The position numbers were made by a program, and so were the translations under genes. DNA of 19,057 bases from an uncultured Erysipelotrichaceae bacterium (lineage in GTDB: Bacteria; Bacillota_I; Bacilli_A; Erysipelotrichales; Erysipelotrichaceae), in assembly GCA_900319505.1 (NCBI GenBank), contig ONOV01000221.1, positions 1-19,057 of the forward strand, in the 5' to 3' direction. How positions within the stretch are numbered: the stretch's first letter is position 1; each line of letters opens with the position of its first letter. Under the pieces are notes generated by a model that saw only the letters and a list, made by a program, of their open reading frames with translations, had not been told where the DNA came from and ran no database searches. Positions 7,201-18,968 of the stretch are shown here, in pieces.

Positions 7201-7843
7201 AGCAGTAATTTTTGACATGGATGGTACAACCCTGTACACCCTGCAGGATCTGTCTGATGGATTGAACTATGCCCTCAGAAAGAACGGTTTTCCACCAAAG
7301 CCGATCGAAGAGATCCGGCTGTTTGTGGGTAATGGTGTACACAGTGAAGCAGAACACAGTGTACCGTCCGGCACATCCGAAGCAGAAATTGAGAAAGTGT
7401 ACCAGGACTTTCTGCCCTGGTATAATGCCCACTGCAATGATCATACAAAGCCGTATGACGGCATTCTGGATCTGCTGAAGCACATTCGGGCACACGGCAT
7501 GCGTACAGCGATCGTTTCCAATAAGGGCGATGAAGCGGTACAGATTCTGGATGAGATGTATTTCCATGGTCTGATAGATGCAGGGGTTGGCGAAAAGGAA
7601 GGCATTGCCCGCAAACCGGCGCCGGATACGGTCAATGCCGTATTGAAACAGCTGAATGTTGCCAGAGAAGATGCGGTGTATATCGGGGACAGTGAAGTGG
7701 ATCTTGAAACAGCGAAGAATGCAGGCATGGACTGCATCATTGTGCTGTGGGGCTACCGGGATGAGGCGTTTCTGAAGGAAAAAGGAGCCCTGGATCCGGT
7801 ACATACAGTAAAGGAACTGGAGGAAAGACTGATACATGAGTGA
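7181..7843 (+). CDS. HAD family hydrolase, phosphoglycolate-phosphatase-like, copy 1
   Basis: A 220-residue HAD phosphatase. Motif I is FDMDGTT (Asp12 nucleophile, Asp14 acid/base), motif II IVSNK (Ser113), motif III Lys145 in ARKPAPD, and motif IV GDSEVD (Asp170, Asp174). A helical cap of type C1 lies between motifs I and II. The cap loop FVGNGVHSEAEHSVP (about 48-62) lacks the G-x-G-x-x-x-L pattern usual in phosphoglycolate phosphatases and kept in the next gene, so substrate choice may differ. The start overlaps the end of the M20 gene by 20 bases, and the ribosome site is weak (GGAAAGCAGAG), pointing to translational coupling. The substrate is likely a small phosphorylated metabolite but is not known. 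Confidence 0.87.
   Translation: MAVKQYKAVIFDMDGTTLYTLQDLSDGLNYALRKNGFPPKPIEEIRLFVGNGVHSEAEHSVPSGTSEAEIEKVYQDFLPWYNAHCNDHTKPYDGILDLLKHIRAHGMRTAIVSNKGDEAVQILDEMYFHGLIDAGVGEKEGIARKPAPDTVNAVLKQLNVAREDAVYIGDSEVDLETAKNAGMDCIIVLWGYRDEAFLKEKGALDPVHTVKELEERLIHE
7661..7737 (+). repeat. Near-identical 77-base block shared by the two HAD genes (first copy)
   Basis: This block over motif IV of HAD copy 1 matches 8319-8395 in HAD copy 2 at 75 of 77 bases, counted by eye, whereas flanking parts of the genes differ much more. It fits selection on the motif plus recent conversion between the copies. Confidence 0.8.
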
Positions 7844-8498
7844 ACTGAAAGATAAAGAACTGATCATCTTTGACATGGATGGAACAACCCTCTACACCCT
7901 GGATGATCTGTGGGACACAGCCAATTATGCCCTGGCGAAAAACGGTCTTCCCTTGCGAAAGAAAGAGGAAATCAGGCAGTTTGCCGGCTATGGCCTGAAG
8001 CGTCTGATTGAGCAGGCGGTGCCGGATGGTACACCGGCCGGATTATGTGAGCAGTGCTTTCAGGATCTGACGGAACATTATAAAGTGCACTGTAATGACA
8101 AGACACGTCCGTATGACGGGATACCGGAACTGATGCGGGCACTGCGTCAGGCGGGAAAGAAAACAGCTGTTGTCTCCAATAAGGCAGACTATGCGGTACA
8201 GATTCTCGATGAGAAGTATTTTCCCGGTCTGCTCGATATGGGTGAAGGGGAAAGAGAAGGCATTGCCCGCAAGCCCCATGCGGATATGGTCAATGCTGTG
8301 CTGGAACAATTGCATACTGCCAGAGAAGATGCGGTGTATATCGGAGACAGTGAAGTGGATCTTGAAACAGCGAAGAATGCCGGCATGGACTGCATTGCAG
8401 TGCTGTGGGGATACCGTTCAGAAGCATTCCTGAAACAGCAGGGAGCGGTCCATATTGTCAAAGATGTGGATGAATTGAAGAAAGTTCTGTTAGGGTAA
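7836..8498 (+). CDS. HAD family hydrolase, phosphoglycolate-phosphatase-like, copy 2
   Basis: A 220-residue paralog of the preceding gene, overlapping it by eight bases. The HAD residues are intact: Asp13 and Asp15 (FDMDGTT), Ser114 (VVSNK), Lys146 (ARKPHAD), Asp171 and Asp175 (GDSEVD). The cap segment FAGYGLKRLIEQAVP (about 49-63) keeps the G-x-G-x-x-x-L pattern of phosphoglycolate phosphatases, unlike copy 1. Both proteins share HCND-x-T-x-PYDGI and a long identical block around motif IV. It is the last gene of the operon starting at 4292 and is followed by a bidirectional terminator. The tandem pair is a clear local duplication. Confidence 0.88.
   Translation: MSELKDKELIIFDMDGTTLYTLDDLWDTANYALAKNGLPLRKKEEIRQFAGYGLKRLIEQAVPDGTPAGLCEQCFQDLTEHYKVHCNDKTRPYDGIPELMRALRQAGKKTAVVSNKADYAVQILDEKYFPGLLDMGEGEREGIARKPHADMVNAVLEQLHTAREDAVYIGDSEVDLETAKNAGMDCIAVLWGYRSEAFLKQQGAVHIVKDVDELKKVLLG
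8319..8395 (+). repeat. Near-identical 77-base block shared by the two HAD genes (second copy)
   Basis: Second copy of the block at 7661-7737; the two differences are silent (GGG/GGA and GCA/GCC codons). Confidence 0.8.
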
Positions 8499-8541: not shown

Positions 8542-9390
8542 TCAGAAATCAGCTTCGTCCGGATTGATGTTCTCCGGGCCGTAATTTTTCATATTATCAA
8601 GATATTTCATCTCATCTGAAGAGAGACGGAAATTGTAGGCATTGAAGTTTTCAGCCAGTGTCTTTTCATCACTGCCGTTGACCAGGGCGATGCAGTCTTT
8701 TTCAAACAGATACCTGACACAGATCTGCTGGGGTGTTACCTTGTACTTCTCGGCGAAGATCTTCAGCTCGCGGCTGTTGAGAATCGGTGCATCCTCATCC
8801 GGCAGATAGCCTTCGGTCTGGATCTTATGGGATGAAGCGCAGTCTACATTGTCAGTGAACGGAAAGCCCGGGTAGATGCGCGCTTCATTCAGCATTGGAG
8901 CGATCTCACTGTGATCCAGCGTGTATTCAATATGCCGTGATTCATAGTTGGCAACACCGATGGCACGCGCACTGCCTGACTTGTAGATCTCTTCCAGAGC
9001 ATGCCATGTGGCGACAATTGTTTCTTCATACGTATCACGGAAGCCAACCGGATTCGGCCAGTCAATCAGAAGCAGATCCGCATAATCTGTCTGCAGACGG
9101 GACAGAGAGTTGCGGAAGCCGTGCCTTGCGGCATCAAAGCCGTGATCACTGTTGGCAATCTTGACGGTCAGAAAGAAATCTTCCCGCTTCAGGCCGCTGT
9201 CCCGGCAGGCGCGGGCGAACGTCTTTTCCACGTCATGATCGGAGCAGACATCAAAGTGCCTGTAGCCGGCATGAATGGCAGTGAGAATATTCTGATATAC
9301 ATTTTTATCTGTTCTTCTGACCCGGAAGCCAAGGGTCGGAATTTTTACACCATTATGCAGAAGAACAGACGGCTTATCGATAAAACTCAT
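8542..9390 (-). CDS. Aldo/keto reductase-fold protein with altered catalytic residues
   Basis: A 282-residue protein of the aldo/keto reductase TIM-barrel family, recognised by GVKIPTLGF, AGYRHFD, the strand DYADLLLIDWPNP, GSARAIGVANYESRHIE and the C-terminal AENFNAYNFRLSSDEM. The classic tetrad Asp-Tyr-Lys-His is damaged: Asp47 and Lys77 remain, but the Tyr position is His52 (DVCSDHDVEK) and the His of the usual LIHWP is Asp110. The cofactor region is also unusual: the K-S...R-x-x-EN motif that binds the NADPH phosphate reads NGSDEKTLAEN, and the nicotinamide-stacking NQ/E segment reads NEAR. I infer a non-reductase or binding role; a changed reaction is possible. GGAGG precedes the start on the minus strand. 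It is a single-gene unit, convergent with the HAD operon. Confidence 0.85.
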   Translation of the reverse strand: MSFIDKPSVLLHNGVKIPTLGFRVRRTDKNVYQNILTAIHAGYRHFDVCSDHDVEKTFARACRDSGLKREDFFLTVKIANSDHGFDAARHGFRNSLSRLQTDYADLLLIDWPNPVGFRDTYEETIVATWHALEEIYKSGSARAIGVANYESRHIEYTLDHSEIAPMLNEARIYPGFPFTDNVDCASSHKIQTEGYLPDEDAPILNSRELKIFAEKYKVTPQQICVRYLFEKDCIALVNGSDEKTLAENFNAYNFRLSSDEMKYLDNMKNYGPENINPDEADF

Positions 9391-9409
9391 CTGGAAACCT
9401 CCGTGCTTT

Positions 9410-9438
9410 ATTATATAACAGCAGACTCATGAAAACTG
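9410..9438 (-). promoter_or_regulatory. Possible promoter of the aldo/keto-reductase-like gene
   Basis: On the minus strand TATAAT (plus 9410-9415) is well placed before the gene and is preceded by TG (TGTTATATAAT). The -35 region (CAGTTT, plus 9433-9438) is poor, so only the -10 is convincing. Confidence 0.4.
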
Positions 9439-9499
9439 TGGAAGAATGCGGAAAACGTAACCCGTTCATTCACATATAAAAAGATGTGGATATCCCGGA

Positions 9500-9517
9500 A
9501 ATGTAAAAGTTTACATT
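9500..9517. promoter_or_regulatory. 18-bp perfect palindrome, candidate repressor operator
   Basis: AATGTAAA-AG-TTTACATT is symmetric with a 2-base centre. It lies in the divergent region between the aldo/keto-reductase-like gene (minus) and the 50-aa gene (plus), where a dimeric repressor or activator could act on both. I cannot assign the cognate regulator. Confidence 0.6.
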
Positions 9518-9550
9518 CTGCTGCTGTGCACAGCTATGAACAGTAACAAG

Positions 9551-9606
9551 ACCTTCTTTCTTTAGTATATAAATGCGGCTGATGATCAGCGGCTAAGAAA
9601 GAAGGT
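9551..9606 (+). promoter_or_regulatory. Long inverted repeat whose right arm contains a ribosome site
   Basis: ACCTTCTTTCTTTAG (9551-9565) pairs with CTAAGAAAGAAGGT (9593-9606), 14 pairs with one bulged T. An inner hairpin GCTGA-TGA-TCAGC (9579-9591 region) lies between the arms. GAAGGT (9601-9606) is the only plausible ribosome site of the 50-aa gene and would be hidden when the stem forms. TATATAAAT (9566-9574) between the arms could instead be a -10 box, in which case the left arm is not transcribed and the repeat would act as DNA. Confidence 0.7.
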
Positions 9607-9612
9607 AATATT

Positions 9613-9765
9613 ATGAAACGGAAAATCAAGAAATGCATGACCGTATCCGAAGGAGAGATCCATGTTGAGGATCTTACGCCGGAACAGCTCTACCGTGCTC
9701 TGCATACGGGCTTTATGAGCCTGGCCATGCCTGCCGCTGTTCATCAGGAAAAGAAAGCCGCCTGA
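9613..9765 (+). CDS. Small basic protein, 50 aa, function unknown
   Basis: A short open frame MKRKIKKCMTVSEG... ending QEKKAA. It starts six bases after GAAGGT, which is the right arm of a long inverted repeat. The N-terminal eight residues are strongly basic; the middle EIHVEDLTPEQLYRALHTGF looks like a short strand followed by an amphipathic helix, with no membrane segment. I do not recognise a family. Evidence for a real gene is the ribosome site, the designed-looking leader and the codon use (CTG, GCC, CCG), similar to neighbouring genes. It has no operon partner: a minus-strand tRNA lies downstream. It could also be a leader peptide or a spurious frame. Confidence 0.5.
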   Translation: MKRKIKKCMTVSEGEIHVEDLTPEQLYRALHTGFMSLAMPAAVHQEKKAA

Positions 9766-9870
9766 CCGGTATATTTAATTCTGCCTCTCATCATCAGTGA
9801 ACCGGTCTGCAGATATGGTGCTGCCACACTGTATCTGCTTTTCTTTTTCCTGATCCTGATGATAAACATA

Positions 9871-9899
9871 AAAAAGATCAGATCTTTCGATCTGATCTT
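9871..9899 (-). terminator. Rho-independent terminator of tRNA-Lys
   Basis: A perfect 11-bp stem AAGATCAGATC/GATCTGATCTT (9874-9884 with 9889-9899) with a TTTC tetraloop on the plus strand. Read on the minus strand it is followed by a run of T, just after the tRNA. Confidence 0.9.
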
Positions 9900-9902
9900 A
9901 CA

Positions 9903-9978
9903 TGGTGGTCCCTGAGGGACTCGAACCCTCGACCCACTGATTAAGAGTCAGTTGCTCTACCAACTGAGCTAAGGGACC
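9903..9978 (-). tRNA. tRNA-Lys (anticodon CTT)
   Basis: The 76-base minus-strand sequence folds as a complete cloverleaf: acceptor GGTCCCT/AGGGACC, D stem GCTC/GAGC with AGTTGGTA loop, anticodon stem ACTGA/TCAGT with loop CTCTTAA (anticodon CTT, reading AAG), variable GGGTC, T stem GAGGG/CCCTC with TTCGAGT loop, discriminator A and an encoded CCA. Promoter and terminator flank it, so it is a single-gene unit. Confidence 0.97.
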
Positions 9979-10159: not shown

Positions 10160-10783
10160 TCAGAATTGCTCGTAGCCGGGATTGGAACGTTCTGTTTCCG
10201 TGAAAGTGCCATTTTCATATAGTACTATGGCATAACCGCAGTTAGGCAGCTTGACAGACCAGTAATTCTCTAAAGGAATCTGGAACATCAGTCCCTGTAT
10301 GGCAGCGCTGATTCCAGCATGTGATGCAACTAGAATTGTTCTGCCGTCATTTGCCGGATTCAGAAGATACTGGCTGATGAACTCTTTTGCCCGATTATAA
10401 ACCTGCTGAAATGTTTCGCCGCCTATGGCAGGAACAAACAGTTCGGGATGATGTTCATAGTTATAGGCACGACAGTTCTGGTAATAGATCGGAATATGAC
10501 GATAGCTGCTTCCTTCGGACAGTCCATAACCGTGTTCTACCAGAAGGTCAGTCGTTTGAATCGGAATATCACGGCCATTCAGTGCAATACGGGCTGTATC
10601 AACTGCCCGGGAAAGGGGACTGGAATAGCAGATGTCGATTTTTCGATTGGCAAGTTTTTCAGCAAGTTCATGTGCCTGGGCGATGCCAGTGCTGTTTAAG
10701 GGAATATTAACCTGACCCTGCATGCGCTTCTTCTGATTCCAGAAAGTTTTTCCATGACGGATCAGTATGATTTCAGTTTTCAT
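10160..10783 (-). CDS. Histidine phosphatase family protein (phosphoglycerate-mutase-like)
   Basis: A 207-residue enzyme of the histidine phosphatase superfamily. The phospho-accepting RHG motif is at residues 9-11 (LIRHGKT), the SSPLSRA-x-x-TA signature at 54-64, the proton-donor glutamate in LVEHGYGLSEG (Glu83), and the second histidine in ASHAG (His155). Such proteins remove phosphate from small sugar phosphates or cofactors, or act as mutases; the sequence does not decide. Its start overlaps the end of the RpiR-type regulator gene by 11 bases, and the ribosome site GAGG lies inside that gene, so both are made together. The link to a divergent sugar PTS operon suggests it acts on a phosphorylated intermediate of that pathway, perhaps to relieve sugar-phosphate stress. 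Confidence 0.88.
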   Translation of the reverse strand: MKTEIILIRHGKTFWNQKKRMQGQVNIPLNSTGIAQAHELAEKLANRKIDICYSSPLSRAVDTARIALNGRDIPIQTTDLLVEHGYGLSEGSSYRHIPIYYQNCRAYNYEHHPELFVPAIGGETFQQVYNRAKEFISQYLLNPANDGRTILVASHAGISAAIQGLMFQIPLENYWSVKLPNCGYAIVLYENGTFTETERSNPGYEQF

Positions 10784-11669
10784 CTTCTTTTTTCCTCTTA
10801 TATGTAGAGCGCGTGCTTTCAGTACTCATCTTTGTCTTTTTGAGATTTTCAGCTGCTTTCTTCTCATCCATAACCTGACACAGAACAAATAGAGCATCCA
10901 GAATGCTCAGCTGAGACATGTGAACGGATATTGATTCGGGCCGGTATTTACGTTCTGAAGATGATGAAGGAATGACGATGTCGGCGTAATCAGAGACCGG
11001 GGCATCAGGATAGCTTGTCAGGGCAATGACATTTGCTCCTGCTTTGTGGGCTGTGTGCGCAACTTCATTGGTCTGGATGTTAGTGCCGGTATGTGAGATC
11101 ACAAAAGCACAGTCTCCAGGCTGAAGCAGAGCAGCACTCATAAGCTGCATATGATAATCCGCAATATAGCCGCAGCGAAGAGCAGAGCGGATAAAGATCT
11201 GATAACATTCCAGGGCAATTGACGCGGAAGCGCCCAGACCGAAGAAAAAGACCTTATTAGAATGTACCATCATCTCTGCTGCGTTTTCGATTACATCCGT
11301 ATGAATCACCTGTAAAGTGTCCTGAATCGTCTTGATGTTGGCACCGAATACTTTCTGAATAATTTCTGATGTGCTGTCACCCTGCTCTATTTCTTCAAAC
11401 AGGTAGGGATTATTATCGTTGTCTGAAGTGAGCAGAGCAATTTTCAGTTCTTTGAAGCCGGAATAGCCCAGCCTGCGTGCATATTTATAAATTGTAGAAT
11501 CAGCTACCTGAAGCTCTTTGGCAATGTCGCTGATGGAAGCGTGAGCTGCATATGAGGGATTTGCAAGGAGGTAATCGGATATAGCCCGGTCAATCGTGCT
11601 CATCTCATCATAGGAACTCTTTATTTCATTAATAATCGATTTATGATCTTCCTGTCTGTTTTCATCCAT
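10773..11669 (-). CDS. MurR/RpiR family transcriptional regulator (HTH-SIS)
   Basis: A 298-residue regulator. The start at 11669 follows GAGG on the minus strand; a longer in-frame extension to 11840 would run through the divergent promoter and is rejected. The N-terminal HTH_6 domain occupies about residues 12-80, with the helix-turn-helix near 45-72 (SISDIAKELQVADSTIYKYARRLGYSGF, split across two helices). A SIS sugar-phosphate-binding domain follows at about 125-265, with FFFGLGASAS and the phosphate-loop ISHTGTN (191-197). It would sense a phosphosugar from the adjacent pathway and control the divergent PTS operon, and probably its own promoter. The C-terminus ends in a lysine/arginine-rich tail (TYKRKKEDEN). 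Confidence 0.93.
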   Translation of the reverse strand: MDENRQEDHKSIINEIKSSYDEMSTIDRAISDYLLANPSYAAHASISDIAKELQVADSTIYKYARRLGYSGFKELKIALLTSDNDNNPYLFEEIEQGDSTSEIIQKVFGANIKTIQDTLQVIHTDVIENAAEMMVHSNKVFFFGLGASASIALECYQIFIRSALRCGYIADYHMQLMSAALLQPGDCAFVISHTGTNIQTNEVAHTAHKAGANVIALTSYPDAPVSDYADIVIPSSSSERKYRPESISVHMSQLSILDALFVLCQVMDEKKAAENLKKTKMSTESTRSTYKRKKEDEN

Positions 11670-11724
11670 AACGTTTTTCCTCTGTGATAGGTGATACGTT
11701 CGAAATATTTTTTGTCCTGCAATG

Positions 11725-11753
11725 ATAATATCACATAATTTTAGGCTGTTCGA
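11725..11753 (-). promoter_or_regulatory. Possible promoter of the regulator/phosphatase pair
   Basis: On the minus strand TATTAT (plus 11725-11730) is preceded by 17 bases and TCGAAC (plus 11748-11753), a weak -35. It is the best candidate in the 235-base divergent region. Confidence 0.35.
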
Positions 11754-11761
11754 CTGTTTGA

Positions 11762-11777
11762 GAAAAAAATAATTTTC
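11762..11777. promoter_or_regulatory. GAAAA/TTTTC inverted repeat, candidate RpiR operator (upstream site)
   Basis: GAAAAAAATAATTTTC has GAAAA and TTTTC arms six bases apart, between the two divergent promoters. Many RpiR-family regulators bind AT-rich repeats with GAAA/TTTC arms; assignment here is an inference. Confidence 0.4.
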
Positions 11778-11798
11778 TATTAAAAAACAAATTTTCCA

Positions 11799-11827
11799 TT
11801 GTAAAGCGCTTACGGTAGTGTTAATAT
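11799..11827 (+). promoter_or_regulatory. Promoter of the PTS/aldolase/kinase operon with an overlapping cre-like site
   Basis: TTGTAA (11799-11804), 17 bases, TAATAT (11822-11827). The -35 and spacer contain GTAAAGCGCTTAC (11801-11813), which keeps the AAGCGCTT core of catabolite-responsive elements but departs from the CcpA consensus at its ends. Binding there would block polymerase when preferred sugars are present. Confidence 0.6.
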
Positions 11828-11846
11828 CCTCATGTACCAATAAAAA

Positions 11847-11876
11847 GAAAAAATATTTTTCACTTTATGGGAAAAA
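11847..11876. promoter_or_regulatory. GAAAAA/TTTTTC repeats in the PTS operon leader, candidate RpiR operator
   Basis: GAAAAAATATTTTTC (11847-11861) is followed by GAAAAA (11871-11876), making two overlapping inverted repeats just downstream of the transcription start. A repressor bound here would stop transcription; it echoes the upstream GAAAA/TTTTC site. Confidence 0.4.
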
Positions 11877-11904
11877 TAACGCACAGAATGCGTGAGGAGG
11901 ATCC

Positions 11905-12378
11905 ATGCTCGGAAAAGAAATTATTATGCGTGAACTGACTGCAGTTGATCTGGAAGCAGAGACATACGAGGACGTATTTGAAAAGATGGCACCTAAGTTT
12001 CTTGAACTGGGATATGTCAATGAAAAATATCTTCCGACGATCAAAGTCAGAGAAGCGCAATATCCGACAGCACTGCCGGTTGAACCCTATCCGATTGCGA
12101 TTCCTCATACGGAAGCGGATGCAATTATCAGACCATTCATTGCACCTGTCCGTCTGAAGAACACCGTGAAATGGGGGGATATGTCAAACCCGGATAACAA
12201 GTTTGATGTAAAGCTTGTGTTCATGCTTGGATTCAAGGATCCTGGCGAACATATCGAGCTTCTTCAGATTCTTGTTTATAACTTTCAGAAACCTGAGTGG
12301 GTTAATAAGCTGTTCGCCGCCAAGACAGATCAGGAACTCTATGATGCTGTATTGGCAATGGAATGGAAACATGACTGA
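11905..12378 (+). CDS. gatA: PTS EIIA component, galactitol (GatA) type
   Basis: A 157-residue cytoplasmic phosphocarrier of the PTS_EIIA_2 (fructose/mannitol-like) fold. The phosphorylated histidine is His68 in PIAIPHTEA, preceded by REAQYPTALPVEPY, which follows E. coli GatA (REAEFPTG...IAIPHCEA). It takes phosphate from HPr and passes it to EIIB. GAGGAGG (11894-11900) is only four bases before the ATG at 11905, so the next in-frame ATG at 11926 is an alternative start. It is the first gene of a long operon divergent from the RpiR-type regulator. The gat symbol denotes the transporter family only; the sugar carried here is unknown. Confidence 0.9.
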   Translation: MLGKEIIMRELTAVDLEAETYEDVFEKMAPKFLELGYVNEKYLPTIKVREAQYPTALPVEPYPIAIPHTEADAIIRPFIAPVRLKNTVKWGDMSNPDNKFDVKLVFMLGFKDPGEHIELLQILVYNFQKPEWVNKLFAAKTDQELYDAVLAMEWKHD

Positions 12379-12430
12379 CTGAACAGCTTGAATTACAGGC
12401 AATTATTTATTCATAAAGGAGGATTAAAAA

Positions 12431-12733
12431 ATGCCAGTAAAAGTTATCGTTGCATGTGGAAGCGGTGTGGCTACCAGCCAGACAATTGCTTCAAAGGTCA
12501 ATCGTATGCTGAAGAACGACAAAATCGACGCTGAAGTAGAAGCTGTTGACCTCAAGAGTGTTGACCGTAATCTGAAGGATGCGGCAGCTTACATCAGTAT
12601 CGTGAATGACCACAAGACTTATGATCTGCCGGTTATCAATGGAATCAAATTCCTGACAGGTATGGGCCAGCAGGATGAGTACAAGAAGCTTGTCGCTGCA
12701 ATTAATGATTATCAGAAAAAGCATCTTGGATGA
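12431..12733 (+). CDS. gatB: PTS EIIB component, galactitol (GatB) type
   Basis: A 100-residue PTS_IIB protein. The phosphocysteine is Cys9 in VIVACGSGVATS, matching GatB IIVACGGAVATS, and the middle and end (DLPVINGIKFLTGMG) follow GatB (DIPLVHGMPFVSGVG). It receives phosphate from EIIA His68 and delivers it to the substrate crossing EIIC. AAAGGAGG lies about eight bases before the ATG. The gap to EIIA is 52 bases without a terminator. Confidence 0.93.
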   Translation: MPVKVIVACGSGVATSQTIASKVNRMLKNDKIDAEVEAVDLKSVDRNLKDAAAYISIVNDHKTYDLPVINGIKFLTGMGQQDEYKKLVAAINDYQKKHLG

Positions 12734-12766
12734 TGCATTAAGTAAACAAAAAGGGGAGTAACTATT

Positions 12767-14146
12767 ATGTTTAATGCTGCAAATGCGTGGATACAGTCGT
12801 TCCTGAACTCTGTCGGTGCTGCTGTATTCGTACCGATTATCATGATTATCATGGGTCTCATCGTCAAGATGAAGCCGAAAGAAGCGTTCAGTTCCGGTCT
12901 TCTGTTAGGTGTTGCTTTTGACGGAATGTCAATGCTCATCTCCTACATGTCCGGTATTATTCAGCCTGTTGGTGAAGCTATGCTGAATCGTCTTGGCATT
13001 GACCTGCCGATCATCGATGGCGGCTGGACAACCATGGCGGCAATTGCCTGGTCATGGCCGTATGCCATTCTGATGTTCCCGCTGATGATTCTCATTAACA
13101 TCATTATGCTGACACTGAACAAGACAAAGGTATTCAACGCCGATTTATGGAATGTATGGGGCAAGATCTTCACTGCAATTGGGGTTGAATTCCTGACACA
13201 TAATGTTCTGCTCGCTTTCCTGATTGCTGCGATTCAGATTGTTCTTGAGCTGAATATCGCTGACCAGTATCAGGATACAATCGAAGAGCTTTCCGGTATC
13301 CCTGGTGTTACCTGCACACATAAGATGGTTTTCCTGACAGCTATCTTCTATCCGATTGATAAGCTGCTCCGTAAGATCCCTGCTCTGAACCATCAGGCCG
13401 ATGCTGCTGCCTTAAGAGAAAAGGTTGGTATTTTTGCAGAAAACCATGTGCTCGGTTTCATCGTAGGCTGCCTGTTCGGTATTCTCGGTGGATACAATGT
13501 TGGTCAGCTGCTTGGTTTAGGTGTGCAGTGTGCAATGTGCTTAACACTGTTCCCGGTCATTTCCAAGTATTTCATGGAAGCTCTGTCTCCTATTTCCGAG
13601 GCTGTTTCCAACTATATGAACAAGAGGTTCGAAGGCAGACAGCTGGTTGTTGGTCTTGACTGGCCGTTCCTGGGCGGTTCCAATGAAATCTGGCTTGCTG
13701 TTATCTACAGTATCCCGATTACCGTTCTGTTCTCCTTCATTCTGCCTGGCAATAAGATTCTGCCGTTTGCCGGTATTGTCAATATTGCAATAGCTGTTCC
13801 TGCTTATCTTGTTACCGGCGGAAACCTGATTCGTATGATCATTCTCTGCACTATCGGTGTTCCGGTATTCCTGTTAGTCGGTACTGCATTTGCGCCTGCA
13901 ATTACACAGCTTGCAACATCTACAAAGGCTGTTGATCTGGCTAAGGGCGCAATGATTTCCAACTCTTCTATCGATGGTCCTTGGTTCACATATGCTATCT
14001 CTCAGTTCCTTGACTGCATGAATGGCAACTGGATCCCGCTGATTATGCTGATTATCTGGATCGCAGGCTATGTTTACCAGCGCCATGATATGAAGAAGAT
14101 TGCTATGGCTAAGAGAGCCGGTGCAGTCGAAAAGGAAGATAAATAA
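12767..14146 (+). CDS. gatC: PTS EIIC permease, galactitol (GatC) family
   Basis: A 459-residue polytopic membrane protein with about nine or ten hydrophobic segments, the translocation subunit of the EIIA/EIIB pair. Length, the N-terminal FLNSVGAAVFVPIIMIIMGL and the segment VVGLDWPFLGGSNEIW (about residues 296-311) fit the GatC/SgcC family, which imports polyols and some ketoses or pentitols as phosphates. GGGGAG precedes the start. A charged C-terminal tail (MKKIAMAKRAGAVEKEDK) faces the cytoplasm. The gene has more conserved, uniformly spaced codons than the regulator side. Because no polyol-phosphate dehydrogenase accompanies it, galactitol itself is an unlikely substrate. Confidence 0.92.
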   Translation: MFNAANAWIQSFLNSVGAAVFVPIIMIIMGLIVKMKPKEAFSSGLLLGVAFDGMSMLISYMSGIIQPVGEAMLNRLGIDLPIIDGGWTTMAAIAWSWPYAILMFPLMILINIIMLTLNKTKVFNADLWNVWGKIFTAIGVEFLTHNVLLAFLIAAIQIVLELNIADQYQDTIEELSGIPGVTCTHKMVFLTAIFYPIDKLLRKIPALNHQADAAALREKVGIFAENHVLGFIVGCLFGILGGYNVGQLLGLGVQCAMCLTLFPVISKYFMEALSPISEAVSNYMNKRFEGRQLVVGLDWPFLGGSNEIWLAVIYSIPITVLFSFILPGNKILPFAGIVNIAIAVPAYLVTGGNLIRMIILCTIGVPVFLLVGTAFAPAITQLATSTKAVDLAKGAMISNSSIDGPWFTYAISQFLDCMNGNWIPLIMLIIWIAGYVYQRHDMKKIAMAKRAGAVEKEDK

Positions 14147-14160
14147 TCTGAAAATGAATT

Positions 14161-14191
14161 GCTGAAAGGATCTCATTTGAGATCCTTCGGC
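14161..14191 (+). repeat. Strong intra-operon hairpin between EIIC and aldolase genes
   Basis: AAGGATCTCA (14166-14175) pairs with TGAGATCCTT (14178-14187), extended by GCTG/CGGC around a bulged A. The following bases are TTATTAAAAAAG, not a T-run, so full termination is unlikely. It may protect the upstream PTS mRNA from 3' decay or lower expression of the downstream enzymes. Confidence 0.7.
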
Positions 14192-14217
14192 TTATTAAAA
14201 AAGAAAGGGTAAATAAA

Positions 14218-14889
14218 ATGCTTGAAGAATTAAAACGCAGAGTTATGGAAGTTGCCAAGAAGGCACAGAGAGAGGGCATGTGCAAGCACAAGTCCGGAAA
14301 CTTCTCCGCTCGTGATAAGGAAACGGGCTATGTTGTAATCACACCTACCAGTGTTGACCGCGAAGATCTGCAGGTCAGAGATATGGTTGTCATGGATCTT
14401 GATGCCAATGTTATTGAGAATCCGACGGGACTGCGTCCTACCAGCGAATCTCTGATGCACCTGGCAATTTATAAGACACGTCCGGATGTTATGGCAGTTG
14501 CTCATACACATTCTCAGTATGCAACTACATTCGCTATTCTCAACAAGCCGATTCCGGCTGTTGTTTATGAACTTGCCAACCTGAAGTGCAGCAAGGCGAG
14601 AATCCCGGTTGCTCCTTATGGACGTCCTGGTACACCGGCATTAGCCGAGTCTGTTGTCGAACCGATTCATGAAGCTGATGTATGTCTGATGCAGGGTCAT
14701 GGTGCTCTGGCAGTCGATGAAGGCACAATTGAAGAGGCTTATCTGAAGGTCTGCTATGTTGAAGAACTGGCTGAGCTTTACTACCATGCTCTGACTGCCA
14801 ACAATGGCAAAGAGCCCGAGGTATTCGGCCCTGAAGAACTGCAGAGCTGGGCATATCCGAAGGAAATCAAATTTCCGCATAAGAATTAA
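14218..14889 (+). CDS. Class II aldolase/adducin family protein (fuculose-phosphate-aldolase-like)
   Basis: A 223-residue zinc-dependent aldolase of the FucA/RhaD/AraD family. Zinc ligands are His96 and His98 (AVAHTHSQYAT) and His161 (LMQGHGALA); the catalytic glutamate is Glu77 (PTSESLMH). SGNFSARD (26-33) and ITPTSVD (41-47) are the phosphate-binding loops. FucA-type enzymes split a ketose 1-phosphate into dihydroxyacetone phosphate and an aldehyde; relatives are epimerases or decarboxylases, so the reaction is inferred. AAAGGG precedes the ATG. Its place between a PTS and dihydroxyacetone-type kinases suggests it cleaves the phosphorylated product of the PTS pathway. Confidence 0.9.
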   Translation: MLEELKRRVMEVAKKAQREGMCKHKSGNFSARDKETGYVVITPTSVDREDLQVRDMVVMDLDANVIENPTGLRPTSESLMHLAIYKTRPDVMAVAHTHSQYATTFAILNKPIPAVVYELANLKCSKARIPVAPYGRPGTPALAESVVEPIHEADVCLMQGHGALAVDEGTIEEAYLKVCYVEELAELYYHALTANNGKEPEVFGPEELQSWAYPKEIKFPHKN

Positions 14890-14934
14890 TTCGATTCACT
14901 GATAATACTGCCACGGGCAGGCACAGGAGGCTTT

Positions 14935-15552
14935 ATGAGCAAGAAAAAACAGCGCAATAAGAATACAGCACCGCGTGATTCATTCATCGGTACACCGCAG
15001 GGCGACAGCCATGCGCATAAACAGATTGAAAAGAATCCGAAACTGCAGATTCAGAAAGAGCGCAAGCCTGTGCCTGCCATCTCCCTTTCTTCCCGCGTAT
15101 TTACGATTGCTGAATGCATTCTGGCATCTGTACTCTGGATCTATTCCGCATATATGCTGATGCCGATAGGCTCCATGCTCAGCAATGTACTGCTTGCCCT
15201 GATCTATTTCTTCTGCTGTCTAGTCATGTATCTGACAAGATGTGCATTGGAAAGTAAAAGAAGATACGGTAAGACAAATCACAAGGCCATGTTCTACTAC
15301 AGCCAGGTAACGGCATATGACCGCAGATGGTCTATTTACATCTCACTTGCATTCTTTGTTGTTATTACGCTGGTGCAGTGGCTTATCCCGATCGGTAAAT
15401 ACCGTATGACTACGATTGATATCGCGTCATGCTTCTATCTGGGTTATGTATGGACAACAACATATAAGGGAGAAAGAATTCCATATCAGTATATGGAGAC
15501 AGTATTTCTGTTTGTGACAATGGCAACAAATATTATTCTGCTTGCCTTATAA
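14935..15552 (+). CDS. Membrane protein of unknown function with a basic N-terminal tail
   Basis: A 205-residue protein not recognised as a known family. Residues 1-45 are polar and strongly basic (MSKKKQRNKN start). Hydrophobic segments lie at about 55-75, 80-100, 133-151, a weaker 160-175, and 187-205, giving four or five membrane spans. The conserved-looking stretch ...KTNHKAMFYYSQVTAYDRR (about 113-131) forms a cytoplasmic or external loop. A strong AGGAGG (14925-14930) is present. It ends 16 bases before the dhaK start, so it is made with the sugar operon. Possible roles are an accessory of the transporter, an aldehyde or product exporter, or an unrelated passenger; nothing in the sequence decides. 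Confidence 0.7.
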   Translation: MSKKKQRNKNTAPRDSFIGTPQGDSHAHKQIEKNPKLQIQKERKPVPAISLSSRVFTIAECILASVLWIYSAYMLMPIGSMLSNVLLALIYFFCCLVMYLTRCALESKRRYGKTNHKAMFYYSQVTAYDRRWSIYISLAFFVVITLVQWLIPIGKYRMTTIDIASCFYLGYVWTTTYKGERIPYQYMETVFLFVTMATNIILLAL

Positions 15553-15568
15553 GAAAAAGGGAATAAAC

Positions 15569-16561
15569 ATGAAAAAGATTATCAATAAGCCTGAAACATA
15601 TGTAGATGATATGCTGAAAGGTATCTATGCTGCTCATCCGGACATGGTAAAAGATACAGCCGATGATCTGAGATGTTACTGTATCGCTCATAAAAAGCCG
15701 GGTAAGGTAGCAATCATTACAGGCGGCGGTACAGGTCATCTGCCTCTGTTCCTCGGCTATGTCGGTGAAGGTCTGATTGATGGATGCGGCGTAGGCGGTG
15801 TCTTCCAATCTCCTTCTGCTGAACAGATTTACAACATTGCAAAAGAAGTAGAAGCCGGTGCCGGTGTGCTGTTCCTTTATGGCAACTATACCGGTGATAT
15901 CATGAACTTCGATATGGCAGCTGAAATGCTTGAGATGGATGATATTCCGGTCAAGAGCATTACCGGTGCGGATGATGTTCTTTCCAATGCCAATCCTGAT
16001 ACAAGACGCGGTGTAGCCGGTATTTACTTCATGTATAAAGCAGCCGGTGCCAAGGCAGATCAGGGCGGAACGCTGGAAGAAGTCTATGAAGCTGCACGCA
16101 AGGCCAAGGAAGCGACACGAACAGTGGGATTTGCATTAACCCCCTGCATTATTCCTGAAATCGGGCATCCTAACTTCACTTTAAAGGATGATGAAATGGC
16201 CATGGGCATGGGTATTCATGGCGAGCCTGGTGTCTGGAACGGCCCGATTAGGACGGCAGATGAACTGGCAGAAGAATGCCTGGGTTATATCCTGAAGGAT
16301 ATGCCGGTCAAGGAAGGCGAAGAAGTTGCAGTTCTGATCAACGGTCTAGGCGCAACCTCTATTGAAGAACAGTATATTCTCAGCGGCAGCGTACAGAAGA
16401 ATCTGGAAAACAGAGGTATTAAGGTTGCCCGTGTGATTGTTGGTGAATATGCCACATCCATGGAAATGATGGGCGCTTCCATCTCTTTGTGCAGGCTGGA
16501 TGATGAACTGAAGTCTTATGTGAACTATCCGCATAATACTCCGTTCTTATGTCAGAAGTAA
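15569..16561 (+). CDS. dhaK: DhaK-like dihydroxyacetone kinase subunit (split form)
   Basis: A 330-residue substrate-binding subunit of the DAK1/DhaK family. The start at 15569 follows AAAAAGGG; an in-frame extension to 15542 overlaps the previous gene. The His that forms the covalent hemiaminal with the ketone is His217 in GMGIHGEPG, and the two other active-site residues are present: His57 in GGGTGH and Asp110 in GNYTGD. The loop after His57 reads LPLF where dihydroxyacetone-specific proteins have EPAH, so the substrate may be larger or different. Its partner DhaL-like subunit starts 12 bases after the stop. No PTS protein DhaM is seen, so the phosphate donor of the pair is open. Confidence 0.9.
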   Translation: MKKIINKPETYVDDMLKGIYAAHPDMVKDTADDLRCYCIAHKKPGKVAIITGGGTGHLPLFLGYVGEGLIDGCGVGGVFQSPSAEQIYNIAKEVEAGAGVLFLYGNYTGDIMNFDMAAEMLEMDDIPVKSITGADDVLSNANPDTRRGVAGIYFMYKAAGAKADQGGTLEEVYEAARKAKEATRTVGFALTPCIIPEIGHPNFTLKDDEMAMGMGIHGEPGVWNGPIRTADELAEECLGYILKDMPVKEGEEVAVLINGLGATSIEEQYILSGSVQKNLENRGIKVARVIVGEYATSMEMMGASISLCRLDDELKSYVNYPHNTPFLCQK

Positions 16562-16572
16562 GAGGTATGACA

Positions 16573-17211
16573 ATGGATGTAATGAAGTGCAGTGATGTCA
16601 TTGACATGTTTGCATGTGTCAGCGAAGAGTTTGCCGAACAGAAAGACACACTCTGTGAGATGGATGCAAAGATGGGTGACGGTGATTTAGGTCTTACCAT
16701 GAACAAAGGCTATGGTGCACTGCCGCAGCTTTTGAAAGATAACAGTGCGGAAGGCGACATCGGCAAGATGCTCATGAAAGGCGGCATGAAGATGTCTTCT
16801 GTTGTCCCCAGTACCATGGGAACACTGATGTCTTCCGGTATTATGGAAGGCGGCAAAGCTCTTAAGGGCAAGACAGAACTGACACCTGCTGATCTCAGTG
16901 CATTCCTGACCGGATTTGCGGCCGGTATTGTCAAACGCGGAAAATGCCAGCCAGGCGATCGTACAATTCTGGATGCGCTCAAACCGGCATCTGAAGCTGC
17001 GGCAGCTGCAGCAGAGCAGAGCGGTGCTTTTACAGATGTGATTGATGCGGCTCTGAAAGGTGCGGCAGACGGTGTGGAAGCAACCAAGGATATGACGCCG
17101 AAGTATGGCAAAGCAGCTGTGTTTGCTGCCAAGGCTAAGGGCGTGGCTGACCAGGGTGCAACGGCCGGCTATGATCTGATTGAAGGCATGCACAGATACT
17201 TTCATAAGTAA
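16573..17211 (+). CDS. dhaL: DhaL-like dihydroxyacetone kinase subunit, divergent
   Basis: A 212-residue nucleotide-binding subunit of the DAK2/DhaL family. The start at 16573 lies seven bases after AAGAGG; upstream in-frame ATGs at 16549 and 16567 are too close to it or inside the dhaK gene. The three metal-binding aspartates are Asp31, Asp36 and Asp38 (MDAKMGDGDLG). The His of the usual DGDHG is Leu39, and the nucleotide-loop GGASG is replaced by VVPSTMG (77-83). PGDRTILDAL is kept near the middle. These changes could mean a different nucleotide or no bound ADP. The C-terminus ends YDLIEGMHRYFHK. It acts with the adjacent DhaK-like subunit. Confidence 0.85.
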   Translation: MDVMKCSDVIDMFACVSEEFAEQKDTLCEMDAKMGDGDLGLTMNKGYGALPQLLKDNSAEGDIGKMLMKGGMKMSSVVPSTMGTLMSSGIMEGGKALKGKTELTPADLSAFLTGFAAGIVKRGKCQPGDRTILDALKPASEAAAAAAEQSGAFTDVIDAALKGAADGVEATKDMTPKYGKAAVFAAKAKGVADQGATAGYDLIEGMHRYFHK

Positions 17212-17276
17212 AAAGGAAATAAGGCGGATGCATCATGATGTATTCGCTTTTTTCAGAAAAACAGGAGGATAAAAAC

Positions 17277-18968
17277 ATGTTATATAACGATCCCAAGGCA
17301 TTCAGAGATGAAATGATCAAAGGATATGTAAAAGCATATTCGCAGTATGTAACTGAGGTTCCGGGCGGTGTTGTCAGAAGTACAAAGCTGCCGGAAGGTA
17401 AGATTGTTGTCATGAATGGCGGCGGTTCAGGACATTTTCCGGCATTCTGCGGTATTGTAGGCGATGGCTTCATGGATGCCACAGTGGTTGGCAATATCTT
17501 CACATCCCCGTCAACTGATGATGTGTATCATGTTGCCAAGGCAATCGATAATGGAACAGGCATCTACATCATCGGCGGCAATTATGCGGGTGACAAAATG
17601 AATTTCAATCTGGCCCGTGATCGTCTGAAAGCAGAGGGCATTGACTGCCGTTCATTCTATATCACCGATGATATTGCAAGTGCAAAGCCGGAGGAAAAGG
17701 AAAAGCGCAGAGGCAATGTCGGTACTTTTACGGTATTTAAAACGGCAGGTGCAGCTGCGGCTGAAGGCGTGAGTTTTGATGAGCTGGAAAGAATCACTGC
17801 TAAAGCCAATGCGCGTACCAGAACGATGAGTGTCGGTCTGAAGGGGTGCACCCTGCCGGGTGAAAAAGAACCTCTCTTCCATGTGCCGCAGGGTAAGATG
17901 GAAGTTGGCCAGGGCATTCATGGAGAGCCTGGCGTGTATGAGGCGGATGTTGTTTCTGCTTCAGAAATTGCCAAACTGCTCTGTGACAGGGTGCTGGCAG
18001 AGGCACCGGCAGATGATTCTAAGCGTATTGCTGTCATCCTGGATGGCTTGGGCTCTACCAAATATGAAGAGCTGTTTGTGGTGTGGAATACGGTAGAACA
18101 GATTCTGACAGACCGCGGTTATACATTAGTTGAGCCGCAGGTTGGTGAATTTGTTACCAGTCTGGATATGGAAGGCATTGCGCTGTCCATTGAATATCTG
18201 GATGATGAACTGGAAAAGTACTGGAAGGCACCAGCTGATACACCGGCATTCCGCAAAGGGAACAGTACAATTGCTGGACATGAAAGACGTACATATACCG
18301 AACAGGCTGATGTGACGAAAAAGTATGAAGGCGCTACAGATGCTTCCCGCAAAGCAGGTGCCTACATTAAAGACGCATTGGGCAGAATGAAGGCAATGCT
18401 GGCCGAGAAAGAAGAAGAGCTGGCAAAAATTGATTCTGTAGCTGGTGATGGCGATCACGGCCGCGGTATGGTTAAAGGTTCGACCTTTGCATATGAGGCA
18501 GCGGAAGCCGCTTATGATAACGGCGCCGGTGCAGAGGATGTGCTGAAGGAAGCTGGACGTGCGTGGGCTGCCAAAGCCGGCGGCACTTCCGGTGTTCTGT
18601 GGGGTGAAGCGCTGGCAAAAGCTGGTGAAACCCTGAATGGTGTTTATACTGCAGACAGAGCTGCTGATGCTGTACAGGCTGCGGCTGATCGTATGACAGA
18701 GCTTGGCGGTGCCCATGTTGGTGATAAGACCATGCTCGATACGCTTGTTCCTTTTGCAGCAGCACTGCGCAGAGAAGCTGACAAAGGACTCTCGCTGAAA
18801 GAAGCATGGCGCAATGCAGCTGCTGATGCTGAAAAAGCAGCGGATGAGACGAAGAATCTTCTGCCTAAGGTAGGCAGAGCCCGTCCGCAGGCCGAAAGAA
18901 GTCTGGGAACACCGGATGCCGGTGCTGTTTCCATGGCTATGTGCATTCGTACTGTACTGCCAGAATAA
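17277..18968 (+). CDS. Fused DhaK-DhaL kinase (dihydroxyacetone/tetrulose kinase type)
   Basis: A 563-residue single-chain kinase. The start at 17277 follows AGGAGG; an in-frame extension to 17235 has no ribosome site. The DhaK domain (1-330) has His53 (GGGSGHFPAF), Asp106 (GNYAGD) and the ketone-binding His215 (GQGIHGEPG). The DhaL domain (about 355-563) has canonical Asp386, Asp391, Asp393 and His394 (AGDGDHG), the GGTSG nucleotide loop (435-439), GDKTMLDTL and GRARPQAERS. It should use ATP. The GSGHFPAF loop resembles erythrulose kinases (LerK/DerK) more than dihydroxyacetone kinases; this is a memory-based comparison. It is the last complete gene of the visible operon. Confidence 0.9.
   Translation: MLYNDPKAFRDEMIKGYVKAYSQYVTEVPGGVVRSTKLPEGKIVVMNGGGSGHFPAFCGIVGDGFMDATVVGNIFTSPSTDDVYHVAKAIDNGTGIYIIGGNYAGDKMNFNLARDRLKAEGIDCRSFYITDDIASAKPEEKEKRRGNVGTFTVFKTAGAAAAEGVSFDELERITAKANARTRTMSVGLKGCTLPGEKEPLFHVPQGKMEVGQGIHGEPGVYEADVVSASEIAKLLCDRVLAEAPADDSKRIAVILDGLGSTKYEELFVVWNTVEQILTDRGYTLVEPQVGEFVTSLDMEGIALSIEYLDDELEKYWKAPADTPAFRKGNSTIAGHERRTYTEQADVTKKYEGATDASRKAGAYIKDALGRMKAMLAEKEEELAKIDSVAGDGDHGRGMVKGSTFAYEAAEAAYDNGAGAEDVLKEAGRAWAAKAGGTSGVLWGEALAKAGETLNGVYTADRAADAVQAAADRMTELGGAHVGDKTMLDTLVPFAAALRREADKGLSLKEAWRNAAADAEKAADETKNLLPKVGRARPQAERSLGTPDAGAVSMAMCIRTVLPE

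Follow-up and report, generated by a model that had tools for sequence, protein, structure and literature searches.

A Gat-type PTS operon with a FucA-type aldolase and two sets of dihydroxyacetone-kinase-like proteins: a candidate route of ketose 1-phosphate cleavage

Which sugar, and by what route, could be degraded by an operon that joins a galactitol-family (Gat) phosphotransferase system (PTS) to a class II aldolase and two sets of dihydroxyacetone-kinase (DAK) family proteins? Such an operon lies on a contig (ONOV01000221.1; G000:C15) of an uncultured Erysipelotrichaceae bacterium; the whole contig, 19,057 bases, was analysed and is referred to below as the window. Eight plus-strand genes at 11905-18968 code, in this order, for EIIA, EIIB, EIIC, a class II aldolase, a membrane protein, DhaK, DhaL and a fused DhaKL; all of them except the membrane protein match Pfam families above cut-off, namely PTS_EIIA_2, PTS_IIB, EIIC-GAT, Aldolase_II, Dak1, Dak2 and Dak1+Dak2, respectively. 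We propose that this is a sugar-catabolic operon working by ketose 1-phosphate cleavage, a reading towards which the balance of probability tips slightly.

In the proposed pathway, the GatABC-type EIIA, EIIB and EIIC would take up a ketose and phosphorylate it, presumably at C1. The FucA-type zinc aldolase would then split the ketose 1-phosphate, releasing dihydroxyacetone phosphate (DHAP) together with a short aldehyde. The likeliest aldehyde is glyceraldehyde, if the sugar is a hexulose; glycolaldehyde would result from a pentulose and a tetrose from a heptulose. This aldehyde would be phosphorylated with ATP by the fused DhaKL, and perhaps also by the split DhaK/DhaL pair, and the phosphorylated fragment could, with no isomerase involved, pass into glycolysis or the pentose phosphate pathway. 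Since the incoming sugar would be a ketose and not a polyol, the route could also do without a dehydrogenase. If the 3R selectivity of FucA holds, candidate sugars are D-allulose, L-tagatose, D-ribulose or similar compounds.

The scheme resembles mammalian fructolysis (aldolase and triokinase, TKFC) in the proposed order of steps and in having a kinase of the same DAK family. It differs in that a PTS, and not ketohexokinase, would be the first kinase, in the DhaK site motif, and in the aldolase, which is class I in fructolysis and a class II zinc enzyme here. DAK-family enzymes are reported to phosphorylate D-glyceraldehyde (PMC6429413). Tetrose-specific transporters, kinases and PTSs are stated to be unreported in PMC12780249, so a tetrose-type substrate would be new too. 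The substrate named by us is a candidate only. A preliminary description, made from sequence, had combined a catabolic PTS, DAK kinases and an aldolase of the DHAP type into a single pathway; it was right in outline, with products that are putative.

The aldolase and the transport system

The class II aldolase (14218..14889, plus strand; 223 residues; PF00596, 167 bits) was aligned with FucA, AraD, UlaF, RhaD and YgbL of E. coli. FucA residues N29, T43, S72, E73, H92, H94, Y113 and H155 correspond to N28, T44, S76, E77, H96, H98, Y117 and H161 of the window enzyme, in which the three zinc His, the catalytic Glu73 and Tyr113 are all present; the catalytic and zinc residues are also kept in nine full-order orthologs. 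AraD and UlaF carry Asp where FucA and the window aldolase carry Glu, and this Glu, together with the retained Tyr113, led us to reject an epimerase identity of the AraD/UlaF kind. None of the 25 NCBIfam models shown (of 28 matching) reaches its cut-off: the best is L-ribulose-5-phosphate 4-epimerase, with 137 bits against a cut-off of 251, and the curated L-fuculose-phosphate aldolase equivalogs give 128/264 and 103/400 bits. The kept FucA residues and the missed cut-offs point together to a FucA-type aldolase with its own specificity, for which, judged from sequence, ketose 1-phosphate cleavage is predicted. The window enzyme is only 33% identical to FucA and 15% to RhaD, and differs from both in being partnered by a PTS and DAK kinases, with RhaD-like enzymes substituting for it in variant loci. 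E. coli FucA and RhaD are described as strictly 3R-selective, and both also join DHAP to dihydroxyacetone (PMC6202814).

The PTS is of the same Gat family as that of the E. coli GatABCDYZ system. It comprises EIIA (11905..12378, plus strand; PF00359, 102 bits), preceded by the Shine-Dalgarno sequence AGGAGG, a galactitol-type EIIB (12431..12733, plus strand; PF02302) and a Gat-family EIIC (12767..14146, plus strand; PF03611, 213 bits). EIIA and EIIC are 67-77% and 69-79% identical, respectively, to their orthologs in loci with the same eight genes. Against the galactitol-specific IIA, IIB and IIC models they score 62, 40 and 270 bits (TIGR00827 in the case of IIC), where the cut-offs are 139, 95 and 542. 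Equivalents of GatD, GatY and GatZ, that is galactitol-1-phosphate dehydrogenase and tagatose-bisphosphate aldolase, are lacking among the operon genes of the window, in contrast to the E. coli system. On these grounds a galactitol/tagatose route was rejected as the leading explanation, with the caveat of one homologous locus (L127) discussed below. The absence of a dehydrogenase, claimed in the preliminary description, holds for the operon itself; the contig ends 89 bases past the DhaKL stop, and genes further downstream in this genome are not visible.

Homologous loci and their constant core

When a genome collection was scanned with DhaKL, 51 loci were recovered, nine of which (L008-L012, L014, L019, L020 and L038) repeat the order of all eight genes exactly; these nine come from actinobacteria of the class Coriobacteriia, namely Olsenella, Atopobium and their relatives. 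DhaKL was also found at E<=1e-100 in 18 of 246 genomes sampled from the class of L009's genome; the neighbourhoods comprise nine with the eight-gene order (one with a broken split pair), three of a RhaD-like variant and six with DhaKL beside RpiB. Over both sets there are 13 distinct eight-gene loci, namely the nine and L127-L130, since L126 and L131 repeat L008 and L011. Coriobacteriia is used here on the strength of names such as Olsenella, Atopobium and Olegusella; L014 is an 'uncultured actinobacterium', and L127-L130 are from L009's class. Retention of the order in 13 distinct loci of this type suggests that the operon is more than a chance assembly, and gives the gene order a wider occurrence than the window alone could show.

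In four loci (L007, L013, L022 and L125) the 223-residue aldolase is replaced by a longer class II aldolase (~270 residues), while EIIB and EIIC are homologous and DhaKL is the same; a fragmentary contig, L017, shows EIIC, EIIA and DhaKL of this variant kind. The aldolases of L007, L013 and L022 are 34-36% identical to E. coli RhaD, with Glu at the RhaD Glu171 position in all three, and that of L125 is RhaD-like through its similarity to L013's. The split DhaK/DhaL pair is present in L013 and missing from the stretches fetched for L007, L022 and L125. In the eight-gene locus L130 (genome G781, ~11700-13200) frameshifts and stops interrupt split DhaK and DhaL, and each of the remaining six genes gives one unbroken match. 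What both kinds of locus share is a PTS, a DHAP-type aldolase and DhaKL; the fused protein is the constant partner and the split pair is dispensable. The succession of aldolase, then DhaKL, is constant across the FucA-like and RhaD-like branches, which is why we place the kinase step after cleavage.

These 18 PTS-aldolase loci (13 eight-gene and five variant, the fragment included) were searched by tblastn (E<=1e-3) for E. coli GatD, GatY, GatZ and DhaM, for RpiB, for a mannitol-dehydrogenase-like protein of locus L021, for the aldo/keto reductase (AKR) of the window and for a short-chain reductase. As a positive control, each source protein except AKR found itself; 7.8-10 kb past DhaKL is visible in 16 loci, 3.2 kb in L017 and 0.3 kb in L038. 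GatD, GatZ, DhaM, RpiB, the mannitol-dehydrogenase-like protein, AKR and the short-chain reductase gave no match in the 18 loci. The sole match was a GatY-like aldolase (38%) at L127:13059-13811, ~1.4 kb downstream of DhaKL; after it, up to ~15600, come genes resembling those of EIIB (27%) and EIIC (34%), so that it is apparently part of a second, separate Gat-type PTS cluster. Among ten proteins from five operon loci scanned with Pfam, of which three proteins were operon products or small unknowns, there was no dehydrogenase; other dehydrogenase families were not searched for.

Two statements of the preliminary description bear on this search. It had taken the missing dehydrogenase as an argument against galactitol, and with no GatD or GatZ in the 18 loci we agree that the substrate is probably another, L127 being the exception. 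It had also allowed that a standard galactitol or dihydroxyacetone pathway at homologous loci would tell against its proposal; GatD, GatZ, DhaM and RpiB gave no match in any of the 18, and only the GatY-like cluster of L127 points the other way. RpiB is likewise not among the operon genes of the window, whereas it lies near DhaKL in L025, L040, L043 and L119-L124. Its absence is expected if the product of the kinase is already an aldose phosphate.

A related form of the operon occurs on enterobacterial plasmids. DhaK relatives were detected in 425 of 72,556 plasmid records (E<=1e-60), and one of the loci, L136 on an E. coli IncN plasmid, has the order IIA-IIB-IIC-BglG-aldolase-DhaK-DhaL-HPr, then fabV, then a second, divergent DhaK/DhaL, the cluster sitting between ilvA and the ilvY-ilvC genes. 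Identities to the window proteins are 36% for IIA, 59% for IIB, 57% for IIC, 63% for the aldolase, 53% for DhaK and 36% for DhaL. L136, which is annotated and for which we found no described function, thus shares with the window the three PTS proteins, the aldolase, DhaK, a DhaL with the motif VPSTMG and a second DAK set nearby. It differs in its internal BglG-type regulator and dedicated HPr, in having no membrane protein annotated between aldolase and DhaK, and in its second DAK set, which is split, divergent and separated by fabV, where that of the window is fused. Two DAK sets with one aldolase and one Gat-type PTS recur across phyla, and we count L136 in favour of ketose 1-phosphate cleavage since it follows the same logic. 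Its aldolase was found in 38 of the 72,556 plasmid records (E<=1e-60; Klebsiella 24, Citrobacter 7, Escherichia 6, Enterobacter 1), 33 of the 38 plasmids being predicted conjugative, and the aldolase-DhaK-DhaL stretch in six of 5,426 E. coli genomes, every time on a plasmid. Among ten plasmid neighbourhoods, for which the gene tables are incomplete, six have a (V/A)PSTMG DhaL (L132-L136 and L140) and four gave no motif by pattern. Two of the six have an aldolase annotated alongside (class II in L136, dihydrodipicolinate-synthase-like in L132); around the remainder, ABC transporters predominate, accompanied by oxidoreductases or kinases. Of the four that gave no motif, L138, L139 and L141 have an annotated dihydrodipicolinate-synthase-like or citrate-lyase-like aldolase.

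Within its own lineage the operon is isolated. The aldolase was found in one of 296 genomes of the class (E<=1e-40) and DhaKL in one of 392 genomes of the phylum (E<=1e-120), the window's own genome in both cases, and we reject the idea that the operon is a common trait of the host lineage. In the genus, the aldolase was matched at E<=1e-30 in 14 of 70 genomes, one of them the window's own, and just one other, G361, exceeds 55% identity (74%); there the gene lies on an 11.3-kb contig (L079) beside TerB, BrxC/D-like (BREX-like) and helicase genes, with no PTS or DAK match. Seven further relatives in the genus are 51-54% identical; in L080-L085, where the gene could be located, no other operon protein matches, and in L080 it lies beside an FGGY kinase, a regulator with a sugar-binding domain, an Rbs-type ABC transporter, a UlaG-like lactonase and an esterase. 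In the tree of DhaK (K) domains, DhaK and DhaKL of the window adjoin the Coriobacteriia rows and are not nested in them (midpoint root; the DhaK fork is weakly supported), which makes transfer between lineages likely, in either direction. Misbinning of the contig was considered and rejected: a radical-SAM gene on its left is 82% identical in a same-genus genome, AKR adjoins tRNA-Lys in three same-genus genomes, and the G+C content is even (43-49%).

Judged by titles and the beginnings of abstracts, no publication was found that describes this operon. The Klebsiella psicose locus was rejected as the same operon: the passages of PMC6020474 relied on name a deoxyribose-phosphate aldolase and an allulose-6-phosphate epimerase and mention neither DhaK nor dihydroxyacetone.

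Kinases and the fate of the cleavage products

Split DhaK (15569..16561, plus strand; PF02733, 378 bits) is of the GHLPLF/GNYTGD type. It overlaps by 13 bases with split DhaL (16549..17211, plus strand; PF02734, 132 bits), which has VPSTMGTLM in place of GGxSGxL(Y/W/F)G. The fused DhaKL (17235..18968, plus strand; PF02733 and PF02734), with a likely translation start at 17277, belongs to the PRK14479 family (NF011049, 718 bits, above the cut-off of 492) and has the site motif GHFPAF/GNYAGD.

Presumably His218 of E. coli DhaK binds the substrate covalently, with His56 and Asp109 acting in the same site. Both window kinases keep the residues aligned with these three (H57, D110 and H217 in split DhaK); the GHEP and KNY motifs are replaced by GHLP or GHFP and by GNY, so that in split DhaK, Leu and Gly stand at E57 and K104 of the E. 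coli protein. The hemiaminal His of dihydroxyacetone kinase is treated in PMC6429413. In an alignment of 65 DhaK domains, the position of Lys104 is part of GNY in 56, of KNY in six and of other sequences in three; the KNY rows are Ec_DhaK, L047, L051, L052, L053 and L056, all six with GHEP. The K-domain tree puts split DhaK with spirochaete DhaK and fused DhaKL with kinases encoded near RpiB, both apart from the canonical rows, on long branches.

Of these near-RpiB DhaKL proteins, those of L025, L040, L043 and L119-L124 are 48-54% identical to the window DhaKL. The arrangement of a DhaKL adjoining RpiB is reportedly that of the mycobacterial erythrulose kinase DerK, and DerK and LerK are said to be DhaK-like; the mycobacterial locus of the L025 type we take to be that of the D-threitol/D-erythrulose kinase, DerK-DerI. 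LerK is described in PMC10733421. DhaKL proteins of this mycobacterial kind, from an ABC transporter-DhaKL-RpiB locus, are 52-55% identical to that of the window and have the site GHYPAF/GNYAGD (GHFPAF/GNYAGD in the window), and L025 differs in possessing RpiB and no PTS or aldolase match. The suggestion of an erythrulose kinase in the preliminary description was reasonable on grounds of identity, and is weakened by the lack of RpiB in the 18 PTS-aldolase loci. In L119-L124, from the class of L009's genome, the adjoining RpiB homolog is 67-74% identical to the mycobacterial RpiB.

Several points weigh against ketose 1-phosphate cleavage followed by aldehyde phosphorylation. To our knowledge no activity has been established for any member of this operon family. 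The known D-glyceraldehyde kinases (human and Citrobacter) reportedly have the canonical GHEP/KNY site, and both window kinases, with GNY and without the Glu, may act on a larger substrate. Phosphorylation by the PTS at C1, and not at the far end, is assumed. FucA Gly44 and Ser71 align with Ser and Thr in the window aldolase, whose specificity may differ for this reason. A DhaKL relative in L021, a contig of a Lachnospiraceae metagenome-assembled genome, has as neighbours an ABC permease and proteins of hexulose-phosphate-synthase-like, SIS, PfkB and mannitol-dehydrogenase-like type; here a polyol-dehydrogenase-like protein is thus nearby and no aldolase was found. The GatY-like aldolase and second Gat-type PTS of L127, in one of the 18 loci, belong here too, as does a Gat-family PTS of demonstrated substrate which imports a polyol, D-arabitol (PMC6685057).

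The last two points would suit an ordinary polyol or pentitol PTS route, with the dehydrogenase encoded elsewhere, the aldolase-family protein serving as an epimerase and the kinases salvaging dihydroxyacetone. The AKR gene 2.5 kb to the left of the operon and the epimerase model as best NCBIfam match are in keeping with it. We nevertheless regard it as very improbable: the aldolase has the catalytic Glu and FucA Tyr113 instead of the epimerase Asp, the 18 loci yielded neither GatD, GatZ, AKR nor the L021 protein and a GatY-like protein just once, the Pfam-scanned proteins include no dehydrogenase, and in three relatives AKR lies beside tRNA-Lys in fetched stretches that lack the operon.

If the PTS instead phosphorylated the far end, a ketose 6- or 5-phosphate would be cleaved to free dihydroxyacetone and glyceraldehyde 3-phosphate, and the DAK kinases would phosphorylate dihydroxyacetone. 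Two DAK-family sets beside an aldolase fit this scheme, as does the E. coli Gat route, which leads to tagatose 6-phosphate, and RhaD is reported to accept dihydroxyacetone as donor (PMC6202814). This explanation appears rather unlikely to us, given that the FucA-type catalytic residues are kept, with most of what we take to be the FucA phosphate-site positions, and that both kinases lack the Glu and Lys of the six canonical KNY rows. TIGR02364 detected no DhaM in the 92%-complete genome, which makes PTS-driven phosphorylation of dihydroxyacetone unlikely and also counts against cleavage to free dihydroxyacetone. E. coli DhaKLM, which is of the same DAK family as the window kinases, differs in this respect; a PTS-dependent kinase of that type was rejected as there is no DhaM in the genome or in the 18 homologous loci.

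The preliminary description had expected two different short ketones or a tetrulose as products. We see no support for this: when an aldolase of FucA or RhaD type cleaves an ordinary ketose by the retro-aldol reaction, the products are DHAP and an aldehyde, and a ketone requires a branched ketose; for use of a tetrulose phosphate RpiB would be expected, and none was found in the 18 loci. Nearest to that idea is a route in which cleavage of a 4-C-branched ketose 1-phosphate yields, besides DHAP, either dihydroxyacetone or erythrulose, and the DAK proteins then phosphorylate this ketone. E. coli FucA and RhaD, and not FruA or TagA, are reported to join DHAP and dihydroxyacetone into the same branched product (PMC6202814). 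A common product would explain why FucA-like and RhaD-like enzymes alternate beside the same DhaKL, and DhaKL does resemble kinases with RpiB nearby; two epimeric sugars would explain the alternation equally well. We know of no natural source of such branched sugars. FucA, moreover, performs the reaction poorly (PMC6202814), and we hold the branched route to be quite improbable.

The split pair needs separate consideration, since the VPSTMG DhaL with its partner DhaK is the most unusual piece of the operon. Among 44 aligned DhaL domains, 12, those of the window and of the eleven other operon-type split DhaL, have VPSTMG in place of the canonical nucleotide loop GGxSG, and 32 have GGxSG or GGSMG. 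The best 120 of 2549 database matches to split DhaL have VPSTMGT in 118 cases, APSTMGT in one and neither in one, with GDGDLG in all 120. No split DhaL was found at E<=1e-50 in 391 genomes of another class, in a search without positive control. The altered motif suggests that the pair may be a different kind of enzyme, and each of the two kinase sets may have a product of its own to act on.

It could also be that split DhaK/DhaL is a regulator or a non-ATP enzyme and DhaKL the sole pathway kinase, which is compatible with ketose 1-phosphate cleavage and which we entertain as a tentative, somewhat doubtful option. The motif itself, present in 12 of 12 operon-type DhaL and, as V/APSTMG, in 119 of the best 120 matches, speaks for it, as do the broken pair in G781, where the other six genes align without breaks, and the fetched stretches of RhaD-type L007, L022 and L125, which are without the pair. 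Against it, the GDGD Asp residues, presumably Mg-binding, and the DhaK His are kept, and intact split DhaK is strongly conserved (77-80% in the loci that carry this type).

A still bolder combination can be imagined, in which a rare or branched ketose is degraded by a route so far undescribed, with a FucA/RhaD-type aldolase giving DHAP and a short carbonyl compound, and split DhaK/DhaL(VPSTMG) is no longer an ordinary user of ATP. The pair might then have another phosphoryl donor, perform another reaction on a His-bound carbonyl, or act in sensing. We think this combination unlikely. If it were true, neither 'kinase' set would duplicate the other, and the present annotation of a widespread DhaL subfamily as dihydroxyacetone kinase would be wrong.

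Surroundings of the operon and significance

A probable operon promoter, TTGTAA-17-TAATAT (11799..11827, plus strand), precedes EIIA. Position 11799, with which the preliminary description had begun the region, is the first base of the -35 hexamer TTGTAA of this good promoter; the 17-base spacer, which holds the sequence AAAGCGCTTAC, similar to what we take to be the CcpA site consensus, is followed by TAATAT at 11822. Plausible Shine-Dalgarno sites precede EIIA, EIIB, EIIC, the membrane protein and DhaKL (at 17277).

Divergent from the operon are an RpiR/MurR-family regulator (10773..11668, minus strand; HTH_6, PF01418, and SIS, PF01380, both above cut-off) and a histidine phosphatase superfamily protein (10160..10783, minus strand; PF00300, 159 bits), the genes of which overlap. 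The regulator's open reading frame reaches a TTG at 11840, an ATG start near 11668 being likelier from the sequence, and its best NCBIfam matches, PRK11337 and AlsR, are both below cut-off. The phosphatase is likely a sugar-phosphate phosphatase; homologs of 50-55% identity lie within the fetched stretch of five of the 18 distinct operon loci (L007, L012, L014, L127 and L129). The preliminary description had reported an uninterrupted plus-strand operon divergent from these two genes. The genes it named are correctly placed and matched in Pfam, and an eighth had been overlooked: that of a conserved membrane protein (14935..15552, plus strand), with no Pfam or NCBIfam match and no assigned function. 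This protein is 33-48% identical to nine orthologs in the same operon position, with 31 invariant columns, and has only three database matches; its structure model is helical and of low confidence (mean predicted local distance difference test score, pLDDT, 62).

The AKR gene (8542-9390) is on the opposite strand, ~2.5 kb left of the operon. It lies ~0.5 kb from tRNA-Lys(ctt) both in the window (8542-9978) and in three same-genus genomes (L146, L147 and L148), and the tRNA is opposite in strand relative to AKR in the window, unlike in the other three. As the phosphatase, the RpiR gene and the operon start just past AKR and tRNA-Lys, the tRNA may mark the border of a rearrangement or insertion. 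Further left, by eye, are three small genes in a row with Hsp20-chaperone-like translations (986-2348) and two neighbouring, similar HAD-like phosphatase genes (7073-8498).

The operon is a conserved and, as far as found, uncharacterised variant of known parts. Anaerobes of another lineage, living in gut and mouth, have the same gene set, and a related form occurs on enterobacterial plasmids, mostly predicted to be conjugative; this spread over lineages and plasmids suggests a portable module for sugar use. The module also offers a natural test case for the role of non-canonical dihydroxyacetone-kinase-like proteins. With its substrate identified, two kinase subfamilies could be annotated correctly, and a sugar from the diet or the host on which these bacteria live might come to light.

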